Virus record (IMG/VR): IMGVR_UViG_3300009154_000033
Coordinates: 1-64,000 of that record
DNA length: 64,000 nucleotides
Direction: 5' to 3' (one strand)
From: a virus
In this document: positions 28,494 through 57,067 of the stretch, piece by piece
Layout of the letters: every line of letters starts with the position of its first letter
Numbering within the stretch: position 1 is the stretch's first letter
The notes under the pieces: generated by a model
What the model was told of the DNA's origin: nothing
Databases searched by the model: none
Seen by the model: only the letters and a program-made list of their open reading frames with translations
Program-made: the position numbers and the translations under genes

Positions 28494-28868
28494 TTAATTA
28501 ACTGAAGAGTCTTTTTCATCTTCACTATCTTTTGGATCTAGATCCGACCACTTAGGGGCATTATCAGAAAAAGATACTATTTTTGGGTCTAGCCCATAGA
28601 TAGAAGCTATAGCAAAAAGAACTGTATAAGCCGAACTTATACTTTTAAGTAAGGCTGGCCCGGAGGGAGGAATAAGAAAAGTTCCGTCTGGCTTAGATCT
28701 TATAGAGTCTATAAACTGCTCTATTTGAGAAATTATGTGATACCCATCATCTGACCCATCCCCTTTAAGGTAGGGAGATCTAGGAATCCAAGTAAGTTCT
28801 ACTCCTTCTATAATAAAATTCCAAATCTCAGACCAATCATCATACGGATATTCTAGTTCTTCATCCAT
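28494..28868 (-). CDS. Small acidic protein, function unknown
   Basis: 124 residues: DDWSEIWNFIIEGVELTWIP at the start, a helical middle (IISQIEQFIDSIRSKPDG, ISSAYTVLFAIASIYGLD) and an acidic, disordered end (SDLDPKDSEDEKDSS). The ATG comes two bases after the stop of the giant gene, with a GGGAG inside that gene's end, so it is translationally coupled to it. A chaperone or loading factor for the giant protein is conceivable, but nothing in the sequence proves it. Confidence 0.68.
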   Translation of the reverse strand: MDEELEYPYDDWSEIWNFIIEGVELTWIPRSPYLKGDGSDDGYHIISQIEQFIDSIRSKPDGTFLIPPSGPALLKSISSAYTVLFAIASIYGLDPKIVSFSDNAPKWSDLDPKDSEDEKDSSVN

Positions 28869-28870
28869 TA

Positions 28871-31800
28871 TTACTTATTCTCCCAGTTCAATAGTGACAT
28901 CAGCAGACCGATTCCAAAAGCTTTTAGATCCCAGTCGGTGTCATTGGAAGGATCTAGTCCTTCAATTCCAGTGATCAGCTTAGGATCGATTTTAGTTGTC
29001 ATAGTGGCATTAGTGTACCAAACGCCAGTTGCTATATCCATGTGAGCATCGCTGAATCTAGTAGTTTTTTTGCCTTTTCCAGTTTTCACGGTTACACCAT
29101 TTGGAGTAGAGAATCTACCGGGATCGGTAAATAGATCTTGCATCGTAGTAGTTATAACTTCAGCACTGTGGTTATTAGGACTAAAAGTAGCAAACTTACT
29201 GGTAGAACGAGGGTATACTTTCACAGTATAAGGATCTGCCACTTTTGCTCCAGAAAAAGATTCTTCCATCCATTTTTCATAAACTTCCATTGAAGGAATA
29301 ATGTTGCTGCTATCAGCTGTTTTTATTCTGTCATAAGAAAAAGCGTGTTCTAAAGCTGCAATGTCATGGTTGATCATCTGGAAGAAATGCCAAACTTCAT
29401 GTAAGTAGTCATCAGTCGAGTCTCCACGGAAGAATCCTCCGTCACCCTGCTCTTTTTTCCATCTCAATGAATTTATTAAATTTTTATTTTTCCAGTGTTG
29501 TTTAAATTGCGCACGTGCATCGGAAATTTGAACTCCAAGTTTTCCACCAGTATGAGCTAGATATTCCATTCCAGCTAGAATAATATCCTTAGGAACAAAA
29601 CTAAGAGTTTCTTCTAGATTTTTAATAAGTTTCTTATTTCTATCTATTCTAATATCCTGGAATTTTTCATTACTATTAACATATTTGTAGTCTTTATATT
29701 GATTAAAGAACTGATGTGCAGGCACCGAGTCAAATTCAACTCCAGCCTTTTCCATCTGAGATTTAATATTTTTACCAATTATAGAATGATATTTATTAGT
29801 AAAATCTTCTGCTTTTGGAGAAGCTCTAAGCCGATCTCTTACTTCCTTTATTTCAGTTGCTTTCTTGGCAAGGTCTGATGTGTCAATTTTACCTGTTCGA
29901 ATAGCCCATTTGGTAAGCAGACTTAGGATAGTTTCTCCGCCCTCGTGTGCTCCCGTAACATCTATTAAAGCTCTTACTTCTTCTACATCTTTAGTTAATC
30001 TTAAAGTTTTTTTATTTCTAACTCTTTGTAGCACAGTTTTACCAGTATCAAAAATAAACTCTGAATATGGGGTAGCATAATCATAAGCAAGTTTATGGGA
30101 AAGGTCATCCCCGTACTCAACTAGAAGCATATTAAAAGTTTCTTCTGCACTAAAAACATTTACATCTTTACCAGATAATTCTTTAGCAGCCTCTTGTTTT
30201 AAACTTTGGAATATCTCTTCTTTATCTTCATAAGAAAGTCTATTGAAAGCATTTCTCATAAGATCTTGAGACATAGCTCTAAACTTACTGTCTCCCCTAA
30301 GTATTTCTCCGTTTAAGGATTTAGCATCATTCTCTAGCTTTTTTCTATATTCTTCAGCAGTAAATCCTTCAGGAATAAGACCTTCAGCTCTAGCTTGCTC
30401 ATCTGAGATAGCTCTAGCATCATCTAGAATCATATGTCCTAGGCCGATTATTTCATTTTTAATAGCGGTAGCCTGATCAGATGGGGCTACTGCATCTTTT
30501 TTAGGAGATCCTTCAATCTGTACTACAGGACCATCAATCGCTATGCTTATGTCATTTTTAATTTTTCCAGGAGTAAACCCGATACCACTAGAAGCAATGT
30601 CCTTAGCCGCAGATGCAATAATTTGTTCTCTAGAACCTTCCCTGTTTTGGCTAGGTTTATTATTATTTTGAATACCAAGTTTTTCTAGCATACCCTTTAG
30701 AAGATCAATAGCAGCTTTTTCTTTTCTTTCATCAACAGTAGCAATCTGATCATTGATCCAGTCCGCAACTTCTTTATGCCTTCCAATACCATCTTCGGAT
30801 ATTATCATTCCAGCATATGCTTCCGCTAGATATTCTCCTTCATCAGTAGCTGCATAGTCACTTAGAGGATATTCAGTCATAAATCTACGAAGCGTATCTT
30901 TCGTAGCCTGATCGCTAAAATTAATGATACCTTTTTGTTCAAGAACGTGTGCTATTTCGTGAGCAATTGTAGACTCTAGCTCTGTAGCATCTGCCCTAGG
31001 ATTTTCAGTTAGTTTAGGGTTAGGTTTATTATCTTCTTCGTTCAAAATTTGACCATTAACAAACATGTGAGGAAAAGACAACCCAGCTAAGTTTCGGCCA
31101 CGAGTACCATCATCTCTAGTAAATGGCTTGAAAAAATCCTCTATATTAGGATGAGTAACAATAACTTGAAGCTCTTTTACAGGGAACTTAAATTTAACTC
31201 TAGATAATACATCCGAAAGTTTATTTGCAAATTTAGCCACTCCAGCAGCTGTAGCAGCTCTGTATTCGGTATTTACATTTGTTTTACCATTTTTCTTAGT
31301 TGGATTAGTTATAAATCTAACAACTTTAATAGTCACATTATTATCTTTATTTATATAGATATCGTGATGAGGAAGCAACATATGCTCCTCATCATGCCTA
31401 TTAATTAAAGGAATTATATGCTTAGTAAGATAGACCTGAGCATTAATAGATAGATTGTCACTACTAGCTCCATCTCCCTTAACAACACCCATGTACCACG
31501 TGTAAATAGCATTTTTTTCAGCCATCGTTAAGTTATCAGTTTCTACATCTGCTGCTAACCACTCTGGCTTTGCATCAGGAAGAGGTCTAGTTCTCTGATC
31601 TCCGGCACCAGATAAAAGTGCTGTAATAAATGTTCTGTGTAGCTCGTTTAAGGAAATAGGTTCCTCGACTGGATTAGTTTGACCAGATCCTTCAGGAAGT
31701 TCATTTTCTTTAGCATCTAGTTTTTTCTTTTTTGCAAACTCGGAGATAACCCAGTCAGAGTTTTCTACACTATCATCAACGTTGATAGACGGAATCTCTC

Positions 31801-34800
31801 TATTTTGTGATGGGCCAGTGACATTAGGAGTACTCCTGTTAAATTCAATAAGATTATCAAAAGCGTTTTTATCTTTAGGAAGCTGGTCCACTAAATAGGA
31901 GATTACTTTATCTGCGTTCTCAGCGATAAAAGTTTTTTGATCAAGTACTTTATGAGAATCATCACTAGTAGCAGCCCTTACTAGTCTATTTTTTCCTGCC
32001 AGTAGAACTACTTCAGCTTCTTCAAAGCAACCAAAACCTGTGCCGGGAATAGAAAGTACCTGCTCAACAGGAATAATAGTTCCCATAAACATTCCGGCTC
32101 TTTCTTGCAACCTACTAGTAGCAAAGTTGAAAGCATCACCGTGAAGCCAGGCCCAAGCTGACATAGGTCTTTGCAATATTTCAGCATCTCCTATGCCATT
32201 ATACTCAATACCGGTATCTATTTTAAAAGCTTCTTCGTCTACTCCAGTACCTCTGTAAAGAGTTAAGTATTTTATTCCATAGTTTTTAAATCGATCCTGG
32301 GTAAGATCGTACATAGTTTTTAAGAAATCTTTAAGAACAGAACTGTGGATTCCATAGTAGTATTCTGCATTTTCTAAAATATCTTTTGTATACTGGGCGT
32401 TTTTACTTTGAACTTTCCATGGGGCCCACGAACCAGCAGGCATTTTAAATGTCTCAGCAGCAGCAATCTGTAAAGCGTGAGATAGCATATCACTACCATT
32501 AGATGTCTCTGCCCACTGCGCAACAAGTATTGAAGCGGCTTTTTCTTTAAATGCCTCTATGTCTTCCGGATTGTCAAAGAAAATTGGTTTTTTATTTTCA
32601 TTTGCATAGTAATCGTCAAAAAGAGTTTTATAGTCAATAGTTTTTTCATCGTAAGGGTTTCCGTACAGTTCTTCATCGTAAGGATCCATGAAATCTAGTA
32701 CTTCTCTTAGAGTTTCTATATGTAATCCTTCATATGGAGAGTGCTCAGAGTCATCAATAAATAATATAATAGAATTTCCATTTAAATTATCCGATTTACT
32801 ATCTAAAGCTTTTAGAGCCATCTTTTGACTATCTAGATAACTCAACCTAGATCTGACTACCTGACTGATAGATATGGCATGATCCAATGCTCCCAAAATA
32901 TCTTTGGGAGAGGATAACATATTATTACCTATATTTTTAGCGGCAATCTCTTTTAATTGCTCAGAGGCTCCGCCCATATGTCCAATTGAGCTATCTATAT
33001 CAAAAGCATCCGGATCGTACCACGTAGCAATCTCATTAAGTCCAGTCTCTTCATTCTCAGCCATAAGCTCATTTAAAAGATCAGACTGTATTTTAAGTAC
33101 GTCTGTAAATCCAGGTACATCCTTTGGATCCAAATTGATTCTAGGGTATAAAAGATCTTCGTCATTAAATAGGTGGTATGGATTTATAAGTGATCCATCC
33201 TTAACATTCTTGAAGTTTTCTAGACTTCCATCCTTATTTAGAACTACATCTCCGACTCCTCCGGATCTTTCCATTGTAGTTGGATTTTTAAAGTCCACAG
33301 TGCTAACGCCAACTACAACAGGCACATACTCTCTTCCAGCTATACGTGCAGCTTCAACCCTATGATTTCCTTCTGCAATAAAAGCTCTTCCAGTAAGAGG
33401 GTTGTACCAAACTAGTACCGGCTCTAAGTAGCCAGTTCCGTCTTCGAGGTCATGGGCTATAGAAGATGTACTGCTCTCCATATCTGCAAGATTGCCTTTC
33501 ATTGTGGCAAGCTTTTCAGTTCTAACATAACCCAGTGGATTACCGCCATTACCTATTCCATATATTTTTACACCTTTGCCAGTCCATTCAGTAAGGTCTA
33601 GGTCTGGGTCATTCTTGTCTCTATAGGAGTTATTTAGAGGAATTACTTCAAGATATTTATTAAGAATAGTAGGCTCTTCAACATTTTCTCTATTTTGATT
33701 AGGTCCATAGTCAATTTCATCGCCATCAAGCTTAGGCTCTTCTACAGGAAGACCCTTCTCCTTAAGAAGATCAATCTGTAGTTGCTTAGATTCTAAAGAA
33801 TCGTGTACGTCTGGTTTTCCAGCATCCACCGAGTTAGAAAAAGCTTTACCGTACATGGTAAGAGTGCTTGAGTGGTTAACAGGTTTACTGTAGTGCTTAC
33901 GAGCTACATACAACATTGCTGTTGCAAGACCGCGGCGTCTATATTCATCATTGGTAAGTACTAAACCAATTTTAGCAGCAGCATTAGGATCTTTTTTGTC
34001 ATCATCATCTACTCTTAATGAAGCTATATGAAGAAATTTTCCACCAAATGTATCTACATTTTCCATACCCTCAGGTGTAAAGTTGGGTGCTAAGAATCTA
34101 CCTTCAAGATCATGTACGGTTACCAGTACACTTTTATCGCTACTGCTGTCAGTGTTTATGTCAGTAAGGATCATATATTTTCTACCGTACTTATCAATAA
34201 ATTTATCTGTGTAACGGACAAACCCAGTAAACTTTTTAGGTTTAGATTTACCTAGAGTAACTTGATCAGCGATGGTTTCCATATTTGTTTTAGAATCTGG
34301 GTTAGCTACAGTTGTGAATTTAGTGTACTCAAATCTCCTAGAAATTTTAGCTGCACGTATTTTTGAGTCATCTCCCGAAGCTATGGCATCTTCTACATTT
34401 TTATTTTCCCAGTCCATGATTTTTTGCTGTTTTGCATTAAATGGAGTGCCGTCGGGCAGCTGAGTGTAATCATAATTATAGATAGTATCTAGATCAAGAG
34501 TACGATCATTAGGATCAAAAGGCTCAGGCGGATACTGGTTCTCACGGTTTTGAGAAGGTTGATTATTAGATAGAGTAACCTTTGATTCATCATTTCTATG
34601 AAGATCAGGGTTAGGGTCAACTGAAAGAGAGAATGCTCTACCAAAAGAGGTTAACATTTCTGAGTGCTGGACTTCTTTTCCAGAACGCTCTCTTGCTAAG
34701 TGAAGAGCTGCAGTAGCTAGACCTCTTCTTACATATCTATCTGAAGTGTAGACCATGCTAATTTTGTTATTAAAGACATCTAATGAAGACACAGGAGTTC

Positions 34801-37800
34801 TATCTTCTGAATTATCTTGAAGATCTTGTAGGGAGTTTTTACTCTTATCGTAAAGCTTTACGTTTGACATGCCGAGGCCGTTTACTACCTTGGTAACTAC
34901 CCAGTACTGTCTGCCGTACTTGTCAGTAAACTCATCAATATACTGAGTACTCTGCTTGTACTCTGGTGGTAGATCTGCATAAGGTTTACCGGCACCGCTG
35001 TAGTTCATTCTAGAAGTATTGTCATCTAGAAGTCCCACCTGATCTTTAATACTTTCAAGATTAGTGCCAGACTTTAAGTTTGGTTTAGCGGTGTATCCCT
35101 GATAGATACGTCTTCTTTCAGCAATACGCAGTTTTCTTTCAAAATCATCAGGTTCATTGTCAATCGCATCTTTAAGAATATCCATTTGTTGCTGTTGATA
35201 AACATTGAATGGGGTACCATCAGGCATTTGAGTATAATCGTAGTTGTAATACTTCTCTAAATCAATAGTGGGATCTGTAGGATCAAAAGGTTCTTTCTTG
35301 GCTTTGTTTCTCTTGAAAAATCCTTCACGGTTTTGAGATGGTGCATTGTCTTCCTGTAGTTTTATAGACTTCTCGTTATTGTGCAGATCAGGCTTACCAG
35401 GGTCAATGCTGTTAGAGAAAGCAAATCCCATGCTAGAAAGATTATCTGAGTGAATTACTGGAAGTCCTAATCTCTTTTCTAGAACAGCAACCAATGCTGT
35501 TGCTATGCCTCTTCTTTGGTATCTATCGGTAACCATTACACTTTGGATTTCAGACACAGATGGGTCTCTAAATATGTAGGAATCGAGTCCTCCGACATCA
35601 TTAATTCCAGACACAGGTTGATCTTTTCTTACATAATCTTCAGGTAGAGGCATACCTTCAAAGTTTTTTTGGTCGTAGGCTACTACAGTCTGACGTCCAG
35701 AGCTTTCGTCTATGTTAGTAACTATGTAGTATTTTCTACCATATTTATCGGTAAACTTATCCACATATCTTGTGTAAGTTAGTCCACGAGCTTCATCAAA
35801 ATACTTTACAGCTGGCTTATCGCTAAACTCTACCTGTTTAAGAATGCTATCTCTTGTAGTAGAAGAGCCTTTGGTAGGCTTAGCAATTATTTGCTGATAT
35901 AAAGTTCTTCTAAAGTTTTTTAAATTCTTTACAGCAAAAGAGTTAGCATCTTCATCATTATTTTTAAGAATGTTTTCTAATCTTTTAGCTATTGCATCCA
36001 TCTGCTGCTGCTGATCACTATTAAAAGGAGTGCCATCAGGCATCTTGGTATAGTCATAGTTGTAATACTCATCTAAATCTGCTTTTTTATCTCTAGGATC
36101 AAAAGGCTCTGGAAGGTACTTAGACTCTTCTTCCTTAGGAGCAGACTCTATTTTTTCAAAGTGCTTGTCAGCAGCTGGCCATAGATTGCGTAGCATTTCT
36201 TCAGGCATACCTTGAGCAGTAGGCTTAGTCATAAAGTCTGAGAGCTGGTCTCTACTAGTGAACATTCTCAAGAAATCGTCAACGTTGGTAGAAAGATCCC
36301 AGCTGCTCTGTTTAATCCAATCTGCATTTTCATCGCTGTTATCGATGTTTATAGGTTTTTCAGCACGTTCTCTATTTTGAGAAGGCTTGCTTTGTTCTTG
36401 AATTACTGTCTGTCCGCTTACTGGATCGTTAGATACAATTTGATTTCTTTCGGCTTCTTCTTTAATTGCCGCTTCTAGATCGCTATTATCTCTATTTCCA
36501 GGATATGAGTGATATGAGAACAAAGCTTCTTTTATGTCCCCGCCTAAAACAACAACTTCACGTTCATCCATAGATCCAAACCCAGATCCAGAAAATGATA
36601 TAACTTTATCGGCCGGAACTATTGTAGCCATAACTACTGCATTTTTACCTGGCGAGTTCATTGCAAAACTCTCTGCTTTATATCTATTAGTTGACCATGA
36701 AGATAGTGGCCTCTGCTGTACAGTGCCTGAAAATACTCCAGTAGACCCTAAATTATTATAAATTTCATTTAGTTCTGTAGAGTCAGATCCCCTATACACA
36801 ATAAACCCATCAATACCCTGATCCTTCAGCAGATCTTGAGTAGCGTTATACATTGCATGTAAGAACTGTGTATAAATAAGTCTGTGATCTTTAACTTCTT
36901 GATCAACCTGATCTTCATAGTGGTTATTTAAATCTATTAAATCTTTTACTTCATTAGGAACGGTTCCCTGCTCCCTATAGATATCTACATTGTATTGATT
37001 CATGCCTCTAACAAAGCTCCACTCGGATGTGGCTTTAGGGTCCATAGCAAATATATCTTTAGCTACTTTTTGCATAGCATGAGATTTTATGTTTTTATCA
37101 TTAGAAGACAGTGCCCATGAGTGAATTAAATTAGAAATCATTATTTTCTTCAGATCATTTACATCTTCCTGATTAAAACTTGAATGTACTCTTAAAAACA
37201 ATTGATCATTTATAAACTTTATAATACTGTTTGAATCTGTATTGCCCATTTTTTCTAGAACAGAATTCATAAGTTCTTTATTTACAGTCAATATAGATAT
37301 AGTTGACAGACTCTTAACTTCATTAACATTAGTGACTAAAAGTTCTGTATCTTCTTTTATATCGGATAGATCTGCATTAAAAGCGTTGTATATTGATGAA
37401 GATGCAGGGCCTGAAAGACGAGAAAAAAAGGCCTCTTTTGCTATACCGTTGTAGTTCATGTAATGCACATCCATGCGGCTAGATGCATTAAATAGTGGAG
37501 AATATCCACCGCTCATAGCAGCTTTAAGCAAATCATCAAATCTAGCATCTGGCATATACCTAAGAAGTCTTGCAGCTGCAACTTGCTTAAGCAGGATAGA
37601 TTGAGAAAACTCAGACGTTGAGCTAAACAGATCGGATATAGAGTCGCTTGCGCTCAGATCGTCTATTTCGCCATTTCTTACAGCATCTTCTACAGCTGAA
37701 ATATTTGTCTTTTGAGTAGCTGTAGTGATATTTCTTTCAGCACCCTCACGGTTTTGGTTAGGGTTAGACTTTTCTTTAGCTGATTGAACGTCACCTAGAT

Positions 37801-46927: not shown

Positions 46928-47130
46928 TATTCTCCGCCATCCTTAAGGATGTCTACCCCGATTAAACGTTGCAGCTCCTCATTGGCGGCTTTAGAGCCTT
47001 CTAAAGTTAGGTTTACTAGTTGCTCGATTGAAAGAGATGAGTATGGCACTTTTTTAACAACGTGCTCATCATTTCTATAAGACTCTACGGTAAGCATAGG
47101 CTCGGCCTTAGACTTTTTATTTTCGTCCAT
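46927..47130 (-). CDS. Small protein upstream of the giant gene, function unknown
   Basis: 67 residues: a Lys-rich start (MDENKKSKAEP), then LTVESYRNDEHVVKKVPYSSLSIEQLVNLTLEGSKAANEELQRLIG, which is helical. Its stop overlaps the GTG of the 6018-residue gene (TAGTG), so the two are co-translated. Not recognised. Comparable small genes follow both giant genes, hinting at partner or chaperone roles (inference). Confidence 0.68.
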   Translation of the reverse strand: MDENKKSKAEPMLTVESYRNDEHVVKKVPYSSLSIEQLVNLTLEGSKAANEELQRLIGVDILKDGGE

Positions 47131-47147
47131 TTATATATCCTACGTAG

Positions 47148-47300
47148 TTATTCTGACGGAGTGTTTTTAGGAGTAGGCTCTGCTACATCCTCTTCACCAC
47201 TATCATATAGGAAATCTGGATCGGGGTTTGGGAAAGAGATAGCAGTCCAATACTCTTCATCTTCAGGAGTATAGTGATCAGGGTTTAAATAATTTTCCAT
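47148..47300 (-). CDS. 50-residue acidic protein between the two giant genes
   Basis: Translated by me: MENYLNPDHYTPEDEEYWTA, then a Pro/Asp/Glu-rich remainder ending in TPKNTPSE. The ATG at 47300 has GAGGAG 8 bases upstream, a strong site. It begins 68 bases after the end of the 3232-residue gene and ends 17 bases before the next small gene. No family recognised; the acidic, Pro-rich end looks disordered. Confidence 0.65.
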   Translation of the reverse strand: MENYLNPDHYTPEDEEYWTAISFPNPDPDFLYDSGEEDVAEPTPKNTPSE

Positions 47301-47368
47301 GTAAATACTCCTCGAAATAGTTAATAAGTCTGTAAATAGTATACCAAAGTATCTGAATAAAGACTTAA

Positions 47369-50300
47369 TTAACCACCAAGAAGTGCTTTAAGTTGATTAA
47401 GAATATTGACTCTATCCTCAGGATCAGCTAGACTAATGCTCCAGTTGTTTGCTTTTCTATCCCAGAAGAATGAGAATGGGATCTTCTTATCTTTAGGTAC
47501 TAGTGAAACACTCTTGATTAGATCTTTAGCAGCCATAGTATCACCCATCAGGAAGATTCTATTACCTTCGATTCGATAGTTGACACCGCCTCCAAGACCT
47601 CCAGAAGATCCATCTTCACCAGTTACTGGCTCAATTGGCATGGAGGTAGCTCCAGGCTGATTAGTTGGATCATACTCTTCATCTGGGTTATCTTCATAGT
47701 AGCCAGCTAGGATGTAGTCAACTGCCTTGCTTGCCATAGAAGCGGCCTCAAACAAAGCGTTTGGCTCTGTTTCCAAGAATCTCTTCCAAGACTGAACATA
47801 AGCAGCCACGTTTTCAATACTGGTGTTGATCCCAAACATAGAAGCTAAAATAGCTGCTCCAATTTCTGCAATAAGTTCTTCACGAGCACGGACATCCTTG
47901 TGCTTACCGTAGTTATCTAGAAGATCTTTACGATCTAGACGCTGAGGGTCTCCAGTACTGTGGACCAGCTCGTGGAACAAAGTATCTAGGTGCTCTTCAG
48001 TGCTATTGAACTGTTCTCTTAGAGGCAAGCTGACTGTGTCCGTCTGAGGTGACCAGAAAGCTGAGTCTCCAGGGGCATATTGGATGTTAGGCCCGCCTGT
48101 GTAGGAAGCAAGGATGATATCCTCTACCTCGTGCATAGGAGGTGGGTCTTTTCTAGGAAGTGGTGGAATAGTAATACCCTTAACCACATCTTCGTTATAG
48201 ACAACATCAATGTCGAGTCTAGTCTTGGTTCTAGAACCATCATCCGGCTTCTGGTCACCAGTCTTTGGGTCAATGATAGTTTTGGTCTCATCTGGCTTTA
48301 CAGTGTACTTACTCTTCACAACCTTGGTTATAAGCACGCCATCGTTTTCGTCTACGTAGCCACCAAGCTTAGCAATAGCGTTCTTTGTATACCAGCGAGT
48401 ACCTTTGTAGCCTCTGAATTGGCTTAGAACTTCTAGAATAACTAGGTTTCCACCCTTGTAGTTCTTACCAGTAGCGCCTGATGTAGGTAGGTAAGATCCA
48501 CCGCCAGTCCAAGGCTTCTTCCAAGGAATAATTCCCTTATCCATAGCCTCGGTAATTTGAGCCATAACCTGATCTACAGCATCTTTATTGCTCTTTATAG
48601 GTTTGCTATTTTCGCGGTTTTGAGAAGGACCGTTGTCTTCTAGGTCTTTCCAACCAAAAATTGCCTCGGAAGCTCCAAAGATTCCAGATTTATTTGCCAC
48701 TTCAGAGACCTTCACGAACTTGTCACCATTTTCGTCAGTGTAAAGTTCTACTCTCTTATTTGGCAAAGCTGATCTGAGTTGAGCCACGTACTCTTCCGGA
48801 TCTAGTCCATTAGGAATAGGGTCAAGAACAGGAGTCTCGATCTCGGCTGTCATTCTTTCAGCAGCGTGAACTGCCTCTGTGAGTTCCTTTAGACCGCGTT
48901 CTCCGCCAGGATATTGAGGATCTCTAGAGATAGGCTCAAGAGACATCTGGTAATCGTACTCAGCTTGAATAGCTTCGTCATAGGCTGCATTAATCTCTTC
49001 TTCAGACATTACTGGCTGCTCAGATGCAGATTTATTAGGAGTTGAATCTGAATCTGATTCAATAGCTTTTGCAACTATATCTAAGCTAGACTCTTTGACG
49101 TTTTCTGGATCTGACTTAGCATCTATGCTATTATCCCCTTGGAAAATAGTAGTTCCGTTTTTACGAACTTGGATAGCATCATTAGAGATAGTAGCTTCAT
49201 ACTTGCCATCAGGAGAACTCCAAGTGTGCTTGTAGTCATTTCCTTCAGGTCCACCTAGATATTCGGTATTCCAGTTAGCAGTGTAGTCATACTTACTGTC
49301 AGGGTTGGTAGCACCTTCACGGTTTTGAGACGGGCCTCCGATAACCTTTTTAGCCTGCTGGCCATTAACATATGATGCACCGCCACCGCCATCAATAGCT
49401 TCAAAGAATACGCTAACTTCATCGGAATCGTGACGACTTATCATCTTGATTCTCTTGTTTCCCTTAGCAGTAACTACAGTGTCACCCTTTTGTAGAGTAT
49501 TAGGGTCTACTTCTACAATTTCAGGTCCTGAGCTTTCAGTATTCTGTGAAGTAGGTTGATCAGGGCTCTTATCAGACCTAGCTTCTAGCTGGCGTAGGTA
49601 ATCCTTACGCTTTGACTTGAATTCTTCTATCTTACCATCTAGCCAATCCAACATTCCAGGATCTAATTCATCCATAGTTCTAGTTACAGCAACGTACATA
49701 AGGTTCAATGCTTCTGTAGTAAGAGATCTAGGCATATTGCCCTTCTCGATAGCGTCAGCATCTTTTTGTGGGTTAGGCTTGAACCATGTTCCTGAAAGTT
49801 TAACTTGTTTAGCTTCTAGTCCCTTGGCTCGGTGAGCAGTTAGAACTACGCTGTCGACATCTGCACCACTTAGAGCGTCTACAAGAGCGCTTAGTTGCTC
49901 AGATCCATTTCCTTGAACAGGAGTGGTCCAGTCCCAAGTCTTACCTGTATCCCATGTGTATCCCATTGAAGATAGAGTGTCAGAGTTATTCTTAGTTCCA
50001 TTATTTGGATTCTTTAGCTCAGGTGTCCAAGGCTTTGCATCACCAGTATTGTAGAGACGGATAGCCCCATTTTCAATCTTGTAGCTAATGAAGTTTCCAA
50101 GATCTCCTTCGTCGCCCCAGTTGCCATCCGAAGGCTTTTTGAATCCTTGAATACCAATGATTCTTGCACCATCTACTGTCCGCTTTAGTTCAGCAAATAC
50201 TGCCTTGCCATCGTTATCTCTTTCTTGCTCTTCTAGACGAGCTTGAGTCAGCTCCATAATGCCTAGCAATCTTCCTACTGCTGGATCAGAATCTTCTTGG

Positions 50301-53300
50301 TGAAGTTCAAGCATTTGCTTCCAGCTGTCGTAGGAGTCTAAGTCCTCATGCGCATTTGATGGGCGATACTTAGGATTAGCACCAAAAAATAGCCACTTAG
50401 CTGTAGCCAAGAAACTATTCATTTCAGCTTTAAATTCCCTAATAACACCAGCACGTTGACCTCTACCAACCATAGTCATAATTTCTAGTAGAGCATCAGC
50501 GTTGGTTGTGGTAAGAATCATGTCTGCATCTGTCATACTTCCAGGAGTTGCAAGACTTGAAGTCTTATTTGGATTTCCGACTAGACGTTCGTCATCCTCG
50601 TCCTTAATCTCCAAAACCTGGTTAGCAAAATCAGCAACATCCTGTCCGGCACGGAACATCATGGTTAGAGGTAGGGTTACCATTCTTCTAAACATATTTA
50701 GGCTGTTGACGGCTCCACGGAACTGATAGATAGATTGGTGAGGATCTCCAACAACAACAAGCTGTATGCCATTGTTGTGTAGAGTCTCTTGCTCATCCAT
50801 AAGTCTAAAGAATACTCCGTTAACGTCCTGAGCCTCATCAATCAGAATAATGTCTGGGATTGCACCAAGACCGTGGGCGCTTTCTCCCTTAGAGTTAACT
50901 TCTTTTAGATTAGGGTGGCTAAGAGCAAAGTTCTTCATCATATCGTTGAAAGTTACAGGAATCTGACGAACGCTGTCATCGTGCGGCTCTAGTTTTTCTT
51001 TCCATATTTTCTGAGCTAGCTCTAGGAAGAATGGGGTATAAGCCTCAGGGCCTCCTATTTTTTCTCCAATTGCATCGTCGAAGTGTTTTCTTTCAATCAT
51101 GTCATCTGCACTAATAGTCCAGTTGTTTAGACCCTTAAGTGTAATTTTTACTGCTAAGAACTTAGAAATTCTTTTTCCATTACCTAGCTCTACTTCGTTT
51201 GGAATCTTGAAGTAATCAGCTATATCTAAAAAGCCATTGATCGGTCTATTTTTTGCATCCGACTGCTTCTTCATAGCAATAAACTTCTTAGAAAGTTTGC
51301 TATTTACAGGAGCTTTGAAAGATACAGAGTCCATAGTTCTAATTTCAGTATTTCCAGGGAACTTAAGTCTGTTCTCATCTGCAATAGCTTTGTTGAAAGC
51401 CATAGCAAGAATTCTCTTCTTAGGGAAGTAGTGAAGTATTGCCTTTGCAAGACCGATCAAGGTAGTAGTTTTACCTGTACCGGCTAGAGCCTTGATAACA
51501 ACTGACCATCCACGAATACCAGCTTCAATAGCGTCTTTCTGCTGATCGGTGTACTCTTTATCCAAGAATTCAATATCGTGTCTACCTGTAGCCAGCTCAG
51601 CCTTGTTCTTGGTATCTTCAGGACGTTCTCTATTTTGAGATGGGGCATCGATAACATCTTGAGCTGCTTGCTCTAGTTTCTTAATAGCAGAGTTGATAGC
51701 ACGCTTTTCTGCTGGACTACTAGTAGAGCTTAAAGCATCTTGCAAATTAGTCATAGCATATGAGAGCCGAGACAAAGTACTCTGCTGATTCACGCCTTCG
51801 CGAAGTTGACTAGGGCCACTCTTTTTGTGACGGTCAGGATATTTCTCATCTAGGTAAGCATTTAACTTATCTAGGTCATATCCAGTAGGGACTCGTAAGC
51901 CATCAACGTCTAGGTTGTTAGCAATGGCGTAGTCAAGTTCTAGACCGTCCATTTCCTTAACTAGATCACCGATTTCGTTAGAGTTGACATTTGGAAGCAA
52001 CTTCCAGATCTCTTCTCTACGTTCCGCAGATACTATGTCTCTAGGATCCAATAGACGTCTTTCAACGCTCTTCAACTGCTTAGGGCTTGGTTTTCTGATC
52101 TTATTTAGTGGATCATCAATAACGTTGCTTTCAGTAAGAGGTTGTTCACCATCGTCTGGCTTTGGAGGAAATAAGCTTGAGAAAGTAGGACGATCGTTTG
52201 TAGGAGTTCCTTCTGGAGATGTAGAGTTAAGAGCATTTCTTGCTTCTTGCTCTAGATCCTTAGGATCTGGTTCGTCTCCTCTAGCAGCTCTTTCAACAGC
52301 TCTATCAGCTATAAATTTTAAAGCACGTTCGACAAATGCTTCGTATCCTGGAATATACTTAGCAAGTTTTGCATCATAGTCATTATCTGAAGCATCGAGA
52401 TCAAAGATATTGTCTTTAATCAAATCGGTTCCAGACTTAGCTCTCTTAAGCATCTGCCCTAGAAGTTTGACGTTAAGTTCTAGATCATTAGCTGCATTAT
52501 GTAATGAATTACTAGGAATACCTTCGTATCTTCCTAAAGCTTCTAGAGCGGTAGAACCATGTATACCAAAGTCTCCTACCTTATATGGACCACCAAGGTT
52601 AGTTTTTTTGTTAAATACATTGTAAATGTGATCAGCTAGTCCAAGCGTGTCAATCATTCCAGCAGGAGAATATTCTGCTAGTCCAGCTTCTTTAAGAGTT
52701 CTATTTAGGACTTCTAAATCGTAATCAGCAACGTTGTGACCAGCTAAAACTGCGTCTGGTCCTAGAAATTCTAAAGCCTTAGCAATAACTTCACTCTTGG
52801 TTGGGAGACTTGCAATCCACTCAGGAGTTACTCGATTGCCTTTGTCATCCTTTATATTTGCCATAGACCATGAACTTAAAGGAGATCCAGGATTCATGTA
52901 GCTTATAAACTTATCAACGATTTCTCCGTTTACAACTTTATATATAGCAATCTGAATTGGATCGTTTTTAACATGAGGCTGTAAAGGGTCAAAGATACCG
53001 GTAGTTTCAAAATCAATAAAGTGTAGAACTTTATCTCTCAAAGCTTCAGTTACATCATCCCAGTTCTTTGCTCCAGCCATCCAGTCGCGAACAACGCCCC
53101 AGAAAGCCTTAGGTTTAACTCTTGCAGGAGGTCTAGGCTTATTTGGGTGGTTAGAGTAGTCAATGATTCCAGGAACTGGATCGGTGTCAACTGGGATCTC
53201 TGGAGATTCAACAGGATTTGGCTCAAATACCTCTGCTGATGTGCTGTGGTCTACTTCATCTTCTAGAGATGGGTCGTAATCATTTTCGAATGGACTATTG

Positions 53301-56300
53301 TGGTATCCATCTCTACCCATAACAGAGCCGACTTCAGCTGCAAGTTTTTCAAGAGTCTCTACGGTCTTAGGCTTTTTATTCTTAAGACGTCCGTAGGTGT
53401 GAGCATTATCTGAGTCAGTTAGACCCTTCTTAATAGTCTCTAGACGTTCCATAACCTTAGCAGGTTTGATTACGTACTTTCTACGTAGGTCAAGCATACG
53501 CTTAAGATCCCTGATGTCGTCGACTGCTCCGTCGATGATTCTTCTACCATCGGCATTTACAAGATCTCTGTGATTAGCAACAAAAGCTGCTAAACGAGTC
53601 AGAGCGTAGCGAGATCTACGAGCAGCATTCTTACGAGCTTGTCTATTAACATATTGCTTTACTTCTTCTTGATCTTTTTCTTCAGCAAGAATCTCTTTAC
53701 GAGCTTCATCGGTTGGCTTGTAGTCTTCCCAGCCTTCAGGGGCATTAGGTCTGCCAATAAGATCCATCAGGTTTAGGTCATTAATAGACGCTCCGCCTTC
53801 AATGGCTTTCTTTATTAGAATACTGTCGTGAGCATCTTCACGAGCTTTAAGTTCAGAGATGATTTGAGTACTTACCTCGTATACGTTCATCCTAGGAACG
53901 GCTTTGACAATTGCAGCAATTTCTCTGTCGCTTGCTAATCCCTTGTCAAAGATACGTTCGATGCTGGCAAGCATTCTGTCAGATGCACCGTCAAAATCTC
54001 TAGCAACTAGCCCGTACTTGTTCTTAGGCTTGTACTGCTCTTTGAATGGATGCTCCTTGAATGTGTAATACCATTCACGGATCTCGCGAGCATTCATGTC
54101 TTTGTAGTTGTCCATAAACTCTTGGACTAAATCTTGAGGAATATCTCTATCCTCTAAGAATCTTTCAATACCAACAAGTTGGCCATCGCTAGGGCCCATA
54201 GCTTCTTGAGGAACGTTGCTGCTAAGGTACTTAGGACTTTCAGTAGGCTGATCTGCTAGCCAGTAGTCAGGCTTACCGTTTACAGTGTTCTCGGCTGCTC
54301 TAAGTTTTTCTAATTCAGCTATTTCTTCTGGAGTAGGTTCTGGAGCCTGAGGTGGTTTAAAAGGTAGACTATAAGCTTTTTCGTGAAGTTGATCGTACTC
54401 TGCCCTGGTTAGGGTGTTGTCATCGATCTTTTTTCTGATCTCTTCTGCTTCTTGTTTACTCCAGTTTTTGTTATCTAAAGCCCAATTTAGGAATGATTTT
54501 TGAAGCCATGAAGCCATGCCTTTTTCAGGTGAGGTAAGTTCACGGAAGTTCTTTTCAATATACGCTGCAAGATCATTTACTTCTTTTACAGTGTGCTCTT
54601 CAGGATTCTTTCTGATCGCTCTAACTTTATCCCAAAGCTCTGGCTCATCTTGAACGTATCTAGAGTTTAGGATTGCAACTAGACGACGGACCTGACCCTC
54701 GTTAGGAATGAAGTCATCATTAACTCTGTTTTGAGAAGGACCTAAATCTGTATTCTTTGCTTCTTTAGAATTTACATATTTTGTTAAAGCTGAGTGCAGT
54801 CTAGATACATAGTAGGTGTCATCGTTAAACTTGTTTGGCTCATCTTCGGATGCAACATGCATCTCGTAGTATATTTCTGCAACAGCTTTTCGAGTTTTTT
54901 CTGCACTTCTACCGTTAGTAATATCGAAATCTTTAAACTCCGAGTACAAACTGAATCTATGTAGATTATCTGGAAGTTTAAACCAGTCTCTAAGAGCTTG
55001 AGTAAGAACCTCATTTTCATCTTCACCAGGATAGATAGGGTGTGTCTTTAGAGGACCCATGCGTTTATCTACAATTTGAACGCTTCTTAGGTTATCTCCA
55101 GAATCAACAATTCTGGCAGAAATATCAGATCTTGAACCCTGTCCAGCCCAAAAACCATTGTCATTAAACTTTGGAGTGGTAAAGTCTCCAGGATAAGTGT
55201 CCTGTAGGAACTGTGCAATGATTGCATCAGCTTTCTTGATCATGTCAGAACCTGGGCCGAAGTAATCGTACTGGAAACGTTCTGATGGGTCTAGCTTAGA
55301 ATACATCTCTCTTTGGTAGTCCGGAACGTTGGCAATGTTAGGGTTAAACAGCGGGTCTAAAGCTTCTAGATATTTAATAGCATGGACCTGGTCTTCAACC
55401 TGCTCCCAGTTAAAGAATGGAACCTGAGTGTCCATAGTGAAGTCACTATTGCCGTCACGTTCGGTTAGGGTATACACACCGTCAGACATAATTGGTTGGA
55501 ATGAAACGTCTCCAGTTCTTTGGTCATACACCAAAGCAACGTCTGATTGACCATATCCGTAAGTTACGCGGAATCTGCGATCTTTAGATAAGTATGTGTT
55601 GTCTCCAATTTTGTTCCAGCCTTCTGGCATGGAACCATCTGGATCATTTTCGTTTTTGCCAGTAGATTCTGGCTTAGGCTCTTCTTCTGGAGTTTCTCGG
55701 TTTTGACTAGGAACAACTGCTTCTACAGCAGGTTTTTCTTCAGGAGTTAGATCCTGGTTATCTTTATCTCCGAAACGATCATCTTCATCTCCAGCAATCT
55801 TCTGTACGCCAGCCCAGTCTTGTGCAAAACCAATAGGGCTTTTATTTCCCTTAGCACGCTTTGAACCCCAAACAGTAATAACTGGCTTAGTCATGTCTAG
55901 GTTTTCAGTACCATCGGTGCCTACTATTTCTAGGCTATCGCCATACGCTTCTTTAGCTTTTTCTACAAAACTTTCAGTAACTTTATTAGGCTTATTTACC
56001 ACAGAAGCGGTGTAGCCATCAGCTGAATCGTAGACTGCGTCAGAGTGAAGTTCATTACCGGTAAAAGTTGAACTAGTCGGAGTATACGGACTCTTTACCC
56101 AGCCTTCTGGCATATCAGCAACAACAAGATCTTTAATATCAACAATGTCGTTATCATTTGGAACCGCTTTTCCAACTGGAAGATCTTTAACTGCTTCGGC
56201 AGGTAGAATAGCTGCAACGGCTTCAAAAGCTGACGCTGGAATTTTGTAAAGTCCATTTTTTAAACCCGGAATATCTGTAATTTCAAAGTCTATGTAGCCA

Positions 56301-57067
56301 CCATTTTCAGAGTAACCTGCAACTTTACCTGTAACGCTTCTAACGTCTCCTTTAGGAAAACGTACGTTTACTTTTCCACCGCCACCCATTTCGATCCATC
56401 GACCCTTAGAGTCACGGAGCTGACGCTTGGCACGAAGTGAACGCCAGAAGCTCGAGTTCTTACCTTTGAAAACATTCATTGCTGAGTGGTAAGCACTCTT
56501 TACTTTACTTAAGAGACCGGCTGTAAGAGGGCTAACAAGTACGTCAATTGGCAGACTTCCAGCTGGAAGAGCTAGTAGACGTGTGTATGCGTGTTGAAAT
56601 TGTACGTCCATTGGGTGGGCACCGTAAACAGATGCAACTAGTGAACGAACTTCTTCATCTTCAATACGTGGATCTGCTGAGTACCAAGCACCACGTCGAG
56701 TACGAAACGTAATTGGATCAAGTGACAACTCAGCTGTAGAACTTGGGTGGTATTCAGGTAGTAGATCGGTGTTACGGTCTTGACCGTTAGGACGTGGGCC
56801 TTCTGTAGCCAAACTAAGGAAATGCGAAAGCTCACGAAGAACGTTGAAGTAACGTACGTCGGTAGTAAGATTTTCTGCTGCAGAAGCAGTGAGTGATCTC
56901 AATGCAACAGTTTCTAATTGCTGTTCGGTGACTCTACGAATCTCTTCAACTCGAGCATTCTGCTCTAGCGTGAAGTTAAAGATCAGCTCGGATACAGAGA
57001 TATCCTCTGGCATCTCGACTGATAGCTGGTCATCAAACTGCTTAATTAGATTAATTTTCTTACTCAC
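47369..57067 (-). CDS. Giant 3232-residue polyvalent protein: exonuclease, SF1 helicase, ArdC-zincin
   Basis: GTG start 17 bases after the Dps-like gene. The N-terminus (1-300) has phage structural character: a GQDRNTDLLPEYHPSS motif shared with the neighbouring Dps-like protein, then LRDSKGRWIEMGGGGKVNVRF, a glycine-turn motif also at the start of the 6018-residue protein. About 780-1300 are helical repeats ('GPSDGQLVGIERFLEDRDIP', 'SDRMLASIERIFDKG'). About 1340-1545 is a DEDDh exonuclease (FIDFETTG; HNVADYDLE; HNAANDLE). About 1835-2475 is an SF1 helicase. About 2820-3100 is ArdC with a zincin. Seven PSQNRE-type motifs separate the parts. ArdC protects incoming DNA from restriction; helicase and nuclease could act on DNA during entry (inference). 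Confidence 0.88.
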   Translation of the reverse strand: MSKKINLIKQFDDQLSVEMPEDISVSELIFNFTLEQNARVEEIRRVTEQQLETVALRSLTASAAENLTTDVRYFNVLRELSHFLSLATEGPRPNGQDRNTDLLPEYHPSSTAELSLDPITFRTRRGAWYSADPRIEDEEVRSLVASVYGAHPMDVQFQHAYTRLLALPAGSLPIDVLVSPLTAGLLSKVKSAYHSAMNVFKGKNSSFWRSLRAKRQLRDSKGRWIEMGGGGKVNVRFPKGDVRSVTGKVAGYSENGGYIDFEITDIPGLKNGLYKIPASAFEAVAAILPAEAVKDLPVGKAVPNDNDIVDIKDLVVADMPEGWVKSPYTPTSSTFTGNELHSDAVYDSADGYTASVVNKPNKVTESFVEKAKEAYGDSLEIVGTDGTENLDMTKPVITVWGSKRAKGNKSPIGFAQDWAGVQKIAGDEDDRFGDKDNQDLTPEEKPAVEAVVPSQNRETPEEEPKPESTGKNENDPDGSMPEGWNKIGDNTYLSKDRRFRVTYGYGQSDVALVYDQRTGDVSFQPIMSDGVYTLTERDGNSDFTMDTQVPFFNWEQVEDQVHAIKYLEALDPLFNPNIANVPDYQREMYSKLDPSERFQYDYFGPGSDMIKKADAIIAQFLQDTYPGDFTTPKFNDNGFWAGQGSRSDISARIVDSGDNLRSVQIVDKRMGPLKTHPIYPGEDENEVLTQALRDWFKLPDNLHRFSLYSEFKDFDITNGRSAEKTRKAVAEIYYEMHVASEDEPNKFNDDTYYVSRLHSALTKYVNSKEAKNTDLGPSQNRVNDDFIPNEGQVRRLVAILNSRYVQDEPELWDKVRAIRKNPEEHTVKEVNDLAAYIEKNFRELTSPEKGMASWLQKSFLNWALDNKNWSKQEAEEIRKKIDDNTLTRAEYDQLHEKAYSLPFKPPQAPEPTPEEIAELEKLRAAENTVNGKPDYWLADQPTESPKYLSSNVPQEAMGPSDGQLVGIERFLEDRDIPQDLVQEFMDNYKDMNAREIREWYYTFKEHPFKEQYKPKNKYGLVARDFDGASDRMLASIERIFDKGLASDREIAAIVKAVPRMNVYEVSTQIISELKAREDAHDSILIKKAIEGGASINDLNLMDLIGRPNAPEGWEDYKPTDEARKEILAEEKDQEEVKQYVNRQARKNAARRSRYALTRLAAFVANHRDLVNADGRRIIDGAVDDIRDLKRMLDLRRKYVIKPAKVMERLETIKKGLTDSDNAHTYGRLKNKKPKTVETLEKLAAEVGSVMGRDGYHNSPFENDYDPSLEDEVDHSTSAEVFEPNPVESPEIPVDTDPVPGIIDYSNHPNKPRPPARVKPKAFWGVVRDWMAGAKNWDDVTEALRDKVLHFIDFETTGIFDPLQPHVKNDPIQIAIYKVVNGEIVDKFISYMNPGSPLSSWSMANIKDDKGNRVTPEWIASLPTKSEVIAKALEFLGPDAVLAGHNVADYDLEVLNRTLKEAGLAEYSPAGMIDTLGLADHIYNVFNKKTNLGGPYKVGDFGIHGSTALEALGRYEGIPSNSLHNAANDLELNVKLLGQMLKRAKSGTDLIKDNIFDLDASDNDYDAKLAKYIPGYEAFVERALKFIADRAVERAARGDEPDPKDLEQEARNALNSTSPEGTPTNDRPTFSSLFPPKPDDGEQPLTESNVIDDPLNKIRKPSPKQLKSVERRLLDPRDIVSAERREEIWKLLPNVNSNEIGDLVKEMDGLELDYAIANNLDVDGLRVPTGYDLDKLNAYLDEKYPDRHKKSGPSQLREGVNQQSTLSRLSYAMTNLQDALSSTSSPAEKRAINSAIKKLEQAAQDVIDAPSQNRERPEDTKNKAELATGRHDIEFLDKEYTDQQKDAIEAGIRGWSVVIKALAGTGKTTTLIGLAKAILHYFPKKRILAMAFNKAIADENRLKFPGNTEIRTMDSVSFKAPVNSKLSKKFIAMKKQSDAKNRPINGFLDIADYFKIPNEVELGNGKRISKFLAVKITLKGLNNWTISADDMIERKHFDDAIGEKIGGPEAYTPFFLELAQKIWKEKLEPHDDSVRQIPVTFNDMMKNFALSHPNLKEVNSKGESAHGLGAIPDIILIDEAQDVNGVFFRLMDEQETLHNNGIQLVVVGDPHQSIYQFRGAVNSLNMFRRMVTLPLTMMFRAGQDVADFANQVLEIKDEDDERLVGNPNKTSSLATPGSMTDADMILTTTNADALLEIMTMVGRGQRAGVIREFKAEMNSFLATAKWLFFGANPKYRPSNAHEDLDSYDSWKQMLELHQEDSDPAVGRLLGIMELTQARLEEQERDNDGKAVFAELKRTVDGARIIGIQGFKKPSDGNWGDEGDLGNFISYKIENGAIRLYNTGDAKPWTPELKNPNNGTKNNSDTLSSMGYTWDTGKTWDWTTPVQGNGSEQLSALVDALSGADVDSVVLTAHRAKGLEAKQVKLSGTWFKPNPQKDADAIEKGNMPRSLTTEALNLMYVAVTRTMDELDPGMLDWLDGKIEEFKSKRKDYLRQLEARSDKSPDQPTSQNTESSGPEIVEVDPNTLQKGDTVVTAKGNKRIKMISRHDSDEVSVFFEAIDGGGGASYVNGQQAKKVIGGPSQNREGATNPDSKYDYTANWNTEYLGGPEGNDYKHTWSSPDGKYEATISNDAIQVRKNGTTIFQGDNSIDAKSDPENVKESSLDIVAKAIESDSDSTPNKSASEQPVMSEEEINAAYDEAIQAEYDYQMSLEPISRDPQYPGGERGLKELTEAVHAAERMTAEIETPVLDPIPNGLDPEEYVAQLRSALPNKRVELYTDENGDKFVKVSEVANKSGIFGASEAIFGWKDLEDNGPSQNRENSKPIKSNKDAVDQVMAQITEAMDKGIIPWKKPWTGGGSYLPTSGATGKNYKGGNLVILEVLSQFRGYKGTRWYTKNAIAKLGGYVDENDGVLITKVVKSKYTVKPDETKTIIDPKTGDQKPDDGSRTKTRLDIDVVYNEDVVKGITIPPLPRKDPPPMHEVEDIILASYTGGPNIQYAPGDSAFWSPQTDTVSLPLREQFNSTEEHLDTLFHELVHSTGDPQRLDRKDLLDNYGKHKDVRAREELIAEIGAAILASMFGINTSIENVAAYVQSWKRFLETEPNALFEAASMASKAVDYILAGYYEDNPDEEYDPTNQPGATSMPIEPVTGEDGSSGGLGGGVNYRIEGNRIFLMGDTMAAKDLIKSVSLVPKDKKIPFSFFWDRKANNWSISLADPEDRVNILNQLKALLGG
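47372..48610 (-). other. Segment of the 3232-aa protein: ArdC-like domain with zincin
   Basis: Residues about 2820-3232. DAVDQVMAQITEAMDKGIIPWKKPW and the following TGATGKNYKGGN..RWYTKNAIAKLGG are the ArdC N-terminal ssDNA-binding pattern. TLFHELVHSTGDPQRL (about 3030) plus REELIAEIGAAIL (about 3063) form the zinc site. ArdC blocks type I restriction in conjugative plasmids (family knowledge). The final 90 residues (YRIEGNRIFLMGDTMAAKDLIKS) are a separate small alpha/beta unit. Confidence 0.87.
48611..55711 (-). repeat. Seven PSQNRE-type hexapeptide motifs in the 3232-aa protein
   Basis: Codon positions: 55694-55711 (PSQNRE), 54722-54739 (PSQNRV), 51797-51814 (PSQLRE), 51626-51643 (PSQNRE), 49535-49552 (TSQNTE), 49316-49333 and 48611-48628 (PSQNRE). 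The three variants change one to two residues. Arg codons used are CGA, AGA, CGC and CGT; Ser codons TCT, AGT and TCA. Confidence 0.92.
49553..51625 (-). other. Segment of the 3232-aa protein: UvrD/Rep-type SF1 helicase
   Basis: Residues about 1815-2505, bounded by motifs at both ends. Walker A ALAGTGKTTTL (about 1861), motif Ia-like ILAMAFNKAIADE, Walker B IDEAQD (about 2075), motif III GDPHQSIYQFRGA (about 2103), motif V TAHRAKGLEAKQV (about 2407), motif VI LMYVAVTRT (about 2455). All key residues are present, so it should be an active ATPase. Confidence 0.9.

Follow-up and report, generated by a model that had tools for sequence, protein, structure and literature searches.

How phages pack very large polyvalent proteins, pass them through the tail and activate them is a question raised by two giant proteins encoded in a window of 64,000 nucleotides (the whole stretch of DNA analysed here, positions 1 to 64,000 of the 113,694-bp contig IMGVR_UViG_3300009154_000033). 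The original prediction for this window was that a hexapeptide, PSQNRE, punctuates both giants at their domain borders and serves as a processing site. Does the peptide mark module borders, and which protein would read it?

A head gene cluster with two giant proteins

In the downstream direction the genes follow the order terminase, portal, a protein with a Dps-like N-terminus, giant 1, giant 2 and a small acidic protein. These are followed by a 1506-aa S78-like head protein, the major capsid protein, and connector and tail genes. The main features are as follows.

58260..60065, minus strand: portal protein (phrog_776), the query for relatives and the basis of the tree
57085-58242: protein encoded between portal and giant 1, N-terminus Dps/ferritin-like (by eye and phrog_3636)
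47369..57067, minus strand: giant polyvalent protein 1 (ORF, 3232 aa, GTG start)
28871..46927, minus strand: giant polyvalent protein 2 (ORF, 6018 aa, GTG start)
28494..28868, minus strand: small acidic protein adjoining giant 2, found only in the PSQNRE and PSPKEE clades
23660..28180, minus strand: 1506-aa head protein with an S78-like prohead protease domain at aa ~805-909 (PF04586 E=0.0097, phrog_18402)
21468..23516, minus strand: major capsid protein (phrog_777), without the border peptide

A search with the portal protein retrieved hundreds of relatives from IMG/VR, and the order portal, giants, protease and capsid is conserved among relatives. The portal also matches the cultured Actinomycetia phage DSL-LC01, Microbacterium phages Pumpernickel and Big4, and Arthrobacter phage Atuin. 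The window thus comes from an uncultured phage of Actinomycetota. No prophage relatives were found in GTDB genomes, and no DNA-level relative was found among phage records. The length of the Dps-like protein (57085-58242) is very variable in relatives, about 150-743 aa, and a homologue of part of it is encoded at contig positions 102673-103758. A B12-dependent (class II) ribonucleotide reductase at contig positions 107089-109131 is far more conserved than the remaining genome, with 91% identity in G011 and 84% in G023.

Both giants combine several unrelated effector and nucleic-acid domains in one very large chain, and a zincin-like metallopeptidase, the usual hub domain of polyvalent proteins, is present in giant 1 (PF18818, E=4e-28). 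Profile searches identified RNase T, UvrD-type helicase, ArdC N-domain and MPTase-PolyVal domains in giant 1, and RNase T/exonuclease, GNAT, ParB-like and weak M78-like zincin domains in giant 2. These profiles bear out the originally proposed domain list for the helicase, ArdC with its zincin, the RNase T exonuclease (found twice), GNAT, the ParB-like domain and a weak M78-type zincin; they gave no confirmation of the ADP-ribosyltransferase that had also been placed in the window. The modules are arranged as follows.

55718..57067, minus strand: N-terminal module of giant 1, aa 1-450 (BLAST profile by position)
52463..53020, minus strand: RNase T-type exonuclease domain, giant 1 aa 1350-1535 (PF00929 E=2.5e-13)
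49619..51589, minus strand: UvrD/DNA helicase module, giant 1 aa 1827-2483 (phrog_1967 E=2e-63)
47705..48589, minus strand: ArdC anti-restriction module and zincin (HELVH), giant 1 aa 2827-3121 (phrog_7245 E=1e-56; PF18818, PF08401)
46178..46927, minus strand: N-terminal module of giant 2, aa 1-250, homologous to giant 1 aa ~171-314
33704..36385, minus strand: three related GNAT-type modules of giant 2, between the sites at aa 3515, 3863, 4124 and 4409
33116..33637, minus strand: ParB-like module, giant 2 aa 4431-4604 (phrog_1033 and alignment)

Nearly all relatives have the N-terminal module of giant 1, whether or not they carry border peptides, and the core of the module is also found in cultured actinophages. 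It is likely a virion or packaging module. In one relative (G010, contig positions 30496-30739), a giant is split within the ParB-like module; the counterpart in G011 is a single ORF, and the split is a frameshift or sequencing error.

A hexapeptide repeated between modules

PSQNRE occurs ten times in exact form in the two giants. Together with PAQNRE (one copy), PNQNRE (two), PSQNRV (one) and PSQLRE (one), this makes 15 clear copies. The sixteenth, which completes the number given in the original prediction, is a decayed TSQNTE whose counterpart in the relative G027 reads PSAKQE. All copies lie on the minus strand.

55694..55711, minus strand: PSQNRE, giant 1 aa 453 (predicted pLDDT <50)
54722..54739, minus strand: PSQNRV, giant 1 aa 777 (predicted pLDDT <50)
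51797..51814, minus strand: PSQLRE, giant 1 aa 1752
51626..51643, minus strand: PSQNRE, giant 1 aa 1809
49535..49552, minus strand: TSQNTE, decayed, giant 1 aa 2506
49316..49333, minus strand: PSQNRE, giant 1 aa 2579
48611..48628, minus strand: PSQNRE, giant 1 aa 2814, immediately ahead of the ArdC module
46160..46177, minus strand: PAQNRE, giant 2 aa 251
42137..42154, minus strand: PSQNRE, giant 2 aa 1592
37745..37762, minus strand: PNQNRE, giant 2 aa 3056
36368..36385, minus strand: PSQNRE, giant 2 aa 3515
35324..35341, minus strand: PSQNRE, giant 2 aa 3863
34541..34558, minus strand: PSQNRE, giant 2 aa 4124
33686..33703, minus strand: PNQNRE, giant 2 aa 4409, ahead of the ParB-like module
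31796..31813, minus strand: PSQNRE, giant 2 aa 5039
30638..30655, minus strand: PSQNRE, giant 2 aa 5425

The peptide had been said to be missing from the other large proteins of the window. This is correct, and it extends to the whole contig: neither PSQNRE nor a close variant was found outside the giants in any ORF of the window or of the 113,694 bp. The nearest miss, PIQNVE in the protease ORF, was judged unrelated. The pattern P.QNR was observed 14 times against 0.045 expected, and the best pattern score was 28.8, compared with 5.9 in window-shuffled proteins. The ten exact copies are encoded by nine different DNA 18-mers in which synonymous codons vary. The repeat therefore exists at the level of protein and is not a DNA repeat, and selection acts on the peptide.

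Several findings support the predicted role of the peptide as a separator at the module borders of polyvalent giants. Not one of 16 Pfam or PHROG domain envelopes is crossed by a site (null mean 5.7, P about 0.002), and the ends of interlineage similarity blocks fall near sites in 261 of 1808 cases (null mean 89.8, null maximum 147). The number of sites spanned by similarity blocks among representatives did not differ from random (71 vs 70.5), since gapped alignments are long enough to extend across several modules. The position of the site ahead of ArdC (aa 2814-2819) matches the start of stand-alone ArdC proteins, whose profile position 7 aligns at aa 2827. Sites never precede the first module or follow the last one, and in the lineages listed below none lies within about 75 residues of either protein end. 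Modules gained in relatives come with their own separators. The linkers are of low complexity, and disorder-promoting residues are abundant in the flanks of the sites (median percentile 0.80). AlphaFold had been suggested as a check on whether the motifs lie in linkers. All six sites covered by two models (aa 453, 777, 3515, 3863, 4124 and 4409) have a pLDDT below 50, although the second model is poor (mean pLDDT 45) and its linker evidence is weak.

Private peptides in related lineages

The comparison covered 30 related contigs, which are fragments of uncultured phages. Proteins encoded from portal to protease were searched for over-represented gapped 4-mers, with similar-flank copies removed. 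Patterns were defined post hoc by inspection, with shuffled sequences as control. The peptides found are listed by lineage.

Lineage A, the window clade (window, G005, G026): P[SNA]QNRE
Lineage B (G002, G027): PSPK[EQK]E, 19 copies each
Lineage C (G003, G024): VEE[SMFL][SA]S, 12 and 10 copies
Lineage D (G004): EQEM[AS], 5 copies
Lineage E (G010, G011, G036): GFxQx[PA]G, 21-24 copies
Lineage F (G007): [IL]D[KR]M[AV], 9 copies
Lineage G (G006): P[IL][ILM]KK, 7 copies
Lineage H (G023): [DE]EDLG, 13 copies, weaker
Lineage I (G008): PxxM[AS]F, 5 copies, weaker
Lineage J (G029): PxVDxK, 7 copies, weaker

A relative of lineage C (L242) carries the peptide IEDM[SA]. The shuffle control covered lineages A-I: A-G lie above their shuffles, H only moderately above, and I within its shuffle range. 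In every lineage checked the peptide is restricted to the giants (the other proteins contain one chance match at most), and its core positions are nearly invariant within one genome. The 4-mer search, which leaves room for a very degenerate form, detected no peptide in G012, G013, G015-G017, G019-G022 and G025, and with the same latitude none was detected in the giants of cultured relatives. Giants that lack a detectable peptide thus exist, also in cultured phages, and processing at such sites is not universal.

The different peptides occupy the same borders. Each of the lineages A to G has its resident peptide at the junction behind the N-terminal module of giant 1; the site at aa 453 reads PSPKEE, EQEMA, GFRQEPG, VEESS, PLLKKA or LDRMAP in relatives. 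Likewise, in lineages C, D, E and I some 15 residues separate the end of the ParB-like module from the resident peptide that follows it, and in B the gap is somewhat larger. A site was counted as coincident if the alignment placed it no more than 10 residues from a site of the peptide resident in the other lineage. By this definition, all 28 eligible sites coincide in A-B pairs, and over all lineage pairs, which are non-independent because the lineages are related, 81 of 185 do so (null mean 5.9, maximum 27). According to the original prediction, processing would be refuted if homologues that share the domains lacked the motif. PSQNRE is indeed absent from such homologues in the literal sense. 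However, they carry their own peptide at the same borders, and the idea of processing is strengthened rather than refuted.

The border peptide is real, general within this phage family and highly unusual. No report of a comparable border peptide was found in open-access papers.

A switch of all sites at once

The closest view of peptide turnover comes from G027, whose portal and capsid proteins are 88-89% identical to those of the window. All comparable borders read PSPKEE in G027 and PSQNRE in the window, G005 and G026, and the flanks are conserved. One border aligned between the window clade and G027/G002 reads DLEDNGPSQNREN / DLEDTGPSPKEES. Among the aligned borders, TDLG-PSQNRV of the window aligns with TDLG-PSPKEE of G027, KKVIGG-PSQNRE with KKVIEG-PSPKEE, DLEDNG-PSQNRE with DLEDTG-PSPKEE, and DEIDYG-PNQNRE with DEIDYG-PSPKEE.

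In the portal tree, 14 genomes form a supported clade (97/96), all with a border peptide, and lineages E and H are placed elsewhere. Within the clade of 14, a branch of 0.037 leads to the PSQNRE phages, which sit inside the PSPKEE group. Judging from this topology, PSPKEE gave rise to PSQNRE along a single short branch. Counted by eye, the change from PSPKEE to PSQNRE takes a minimum of four nucleotide changes at each of ~14 sites, which makes drift or mutation bias an implausible cause of the switch. At the level of sequence, this concerted replacement together with the lineage-specific border peptides is the new and decisive result. Near aa 1660 of giant 1 there is also a PSPKEE-like PSPKQLKS that is fixed in the window clade and G027 and does not switch; it is probably part of a conserved segment.

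Which protein recognizes the peptide?

The obvious candidate in the cluster is unlikely to be the reader. In the S78-like prohead protease, the window resembles G027 just as closely as it resembles G026, with which it shares PSQNRE, and the 23 fixed differences of the enzyme between lineages A and B are scattered and mostly conservative. In other words, its sequence does not follow the switch. The capsid N-terminus is conserved across all peptide types and has no border site.

Other candidates were also rejected. The MPTase-PolyVal zincin cannot be a universal reader as it is absent from the peptide-bearing lineages C, D and H; embedded zincins differ from lineage to lineage. A module common to lineages A-E and I and absent in peptide-less phages proved to be the ParB-like one, which is no protease. 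A small M78/DUF6782-like metallopeptidase (contig 102120-102467) is encoded in several phages that carry a peptide and also in the peptide-less G013 and G020. A phage HslV/proteasome-like protease occurs in peptide-less relatives only; its subunit is found in DSL-LC01 (L256:9459-10148), G014, G015, G016 and G022. One further peptidase lies outside the window.

Contig 70910-71383 (L086:6910-7383), minus strand: A24 prepilin-type peptidase, 157 aa (PF01478 E=1.6e-10)

Both aspartate motifs of this enzyme (DIREHRLPN and GMGD) are present. It was found in lineages A and E only, in all six of their genomes that cover the region, and in none of the peptide-less phages. It is at best a weak candidate because it is missing in G023 and is membrane-bound, and because its known relatives act on membrane-anchored substrates. 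No further PSPKEE genomes that include the early region were found in the sequence collections.

Two genes do change with the switch. The small acidic protein (28494-28868) is identical in G005 and 53% identical in G027; the ratio for its change is 2.7, whereas values for portal, capsid, protease and giant 1 are 0.35-0.93. It may be a partner or inhibitor of a giant module. The structural gene after the capsid gene (20239-21396) has a ratio of 20 and was swapped between clades with the same split (identity 42% between window and G027, 86% between G027 and G002, and 68% between window and G011).

A proposed trans-acting reader and its alternatives

How can such a pattern arise? Near-invariant, lineage-private linker peptides that are replaced as a set point to one trans-acting reader per phage. 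The reading we lean towards is that the giants are virion-borne polyvalent polyproteins whose border peptides are recognized, and most likely cut, by a trans-acting reader that co-evolves with them. The giants would be produced alongside the head proteins and would probably travel in the virion. Each would begin with a shared N-terminal carrier module, followed by independently folded effector modules on disordered linkers. Every linker would hold one recognition peptide of 4-6 residues, read by a single sequence-specific protein that acts in trans. The most economical reader would be a protease that cuts all borders, yielding about 17-18 separate proteins. A change in its specificity would force all sites to change together and leave each lineage with a private peptide. 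Release of the modules by a protease would account for a peptide that does no more than separate them, and for gained modules that come with a separator of their own. Packaging and ejection are suggested by the position between portal and capsid genes, by the polyvalent precedent (PMC5512222) and by P1 DarB (PMC9024508). We infer a single reader and cleavage from the sequence patterns. Of the processing role in the original prediction, recognition or processing is now much better supported, by the lineage-specific peptides and the concerted switch; cleavage stays predicted. A more specific form of the proposal is entertained tentatively, as a serious possibility. It holds that these are true DNA phage polyproteins of up to about 25 modules with a uniform cleavage peptide and a dedicated, fast-evolving, sequence-specific protease, in which a lineage-private code is rewritten at every site together.

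The strongest rival dispenses with proteolysis. The peptide could be a docking peptide, one per module, for a single phage or host protein such as a scaffold, chaperone, unfoldase, part of the ejection machinery or an inhibitor. Concerted turnover requires a trans-acting reader but not necessarily a protease, a shared N-terminal carrier with one motif per later module also fits motif-tagged cargo, and the acidic protein changes with the switch. Docking without cleavage accounts for the remaining features almost as well as a protease, and a motif that only binds, placed between modules, would produce the same pattern. It is nevertheless unlikely: the motif is strictly intermodular and absent behind the last module, the obvious docking partners capsid and portal are conserved across the switch, and the acidic protein is confined to clades A and B. 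A host factor as reader, such as a host protease that is active once injection has taken place, with a switch that follows a change of host, is clearly less likely still. No phage-encoded protease follows the peptide, and the swap of the gene at 20239-21396 is compatible with a host change; however, at least eight peptides within one clade of similar phages would need eight host readers, and hosts are resolved only to the level of Actinomycetota.

It is also improbable, to a degree much like that of a host reader or slightly less so, that the S78-like prohead protease cuts the giants in head maturation in the manner of T4 gp21, phiKZ-type proteases and P1 Pro. It lies in the same gene cluster and is present in all relatives whose contigs include that region, and known enzymes of this kind cut internal head proteins (PMC5694885, PMC12810830). 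However, its sequence does not track the switch, it is equally conserved in peptide-less phages, the conserved capsid N-terminus lacks such a site over unrelated peptides, and known sites are short and uniform among relatives (SxE/AxE), unlike the border peptides. The resemblance of the final Glu to T4 and phiKZ head protease sites, on which the original prediction drew, is not supported as an analogy: in some copies V, A, Q or I takes the place of Glu, and the GFxQxPG, DEDLG and PIIKK lineages have no Glu at that position. Least probable, and strongly disfavoured, is a selfish or neutral linker repeat spread by recombination during module shuffling, with no reader. Modules are indeed gained, lost and shuffled between phages on low-complexity linkers; against this, nine distinct 18-mers among ten copies exclude recent duplication at the DNA level, core positions hardly vary in any one genome, and all comparable sites were replaced on one short branch with the flanks kept.

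Relation to known processing systems

In RNA virus polyproteins, one chain gives rise to many mature proteins through one protease, and the sites co-evolve with its specificity. The present giants likewise have a site repeated at domain borders in accessible linkers. The analogy is functional only: here the virus is a DNA phage, the modules are effectors and not replication proteins, and the protease is putative. An analogy between polyvalent proteins and RNA virus polyproteins was drawn earlier, in the study of Iyer, Aravind and co-workers (2017), which treats polyvalent proteins of phages and conjugative elements and proposes processing by embedded peptidases (PMC5512222). The proteins described there resemble the present giants in being very large and multidomain, in their ArdC, MPTase-PolyVal zincin, helicase, ParB-like and other effector domains and in their location beside head genes. 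As far as they are described, they differ in that a uniform, short, lineage-specific peptide stands at most borders here and switches in concert, and in that the zincin, the processor proposed there, is missing here in several peptide-bearing lineages (PMC5512222).

Prohead proteases offer a second comparison. In phiKZ and SPN3US the sites are SxE/AxE, and these phages are known to process large internal head proteins (PMC5694885). As in T4 gp21, phiKZ and SPN3US, where one protease recognizes a short motif in many internal proteins, some of them large, a head protease lies in the same cluster here (S78-like domain, ORF 23660-28180). In those systems the protease mostly takes off an N-terminal propeptide, and relatives and capsid proteins share the motif (PMC5694885). 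Here the motif separates every module, differs between close relatives, is absent in the capsid and in other head proteins, and is not defined by an xxE ending. Phage P1 also packages large anti-restriction proteins in the head, of which DarB has an N-terminal packaging signal (PMC9024508) and DarA is processed by the prohead protease Pro (PMC12810830). There is no repeated inter-module peptide in P1, and DarA loses only an N-terminal fragment (PMC12810830).

Significance

Autoproteolysis of polyvalent proteins was proposed in 2017 without a defined site; the phages described here mark the borders themselves. Sites, products and expected termini can now be written down. In annotation, the border peptide provides a simple guide for splitting giant phage proteins into modules. 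If a protease reads the peptides, the lineages offer about ten natural specificities for which the substrates are already known, and the family would be a natural library of orthogonal, TEV-like pairs of protease and site. Even as a binding motif, the replacement of ~14 or more short linear motifs together between closely related phages would be a clear case of co-evolution between reader and motif in prokaryotic viruses.
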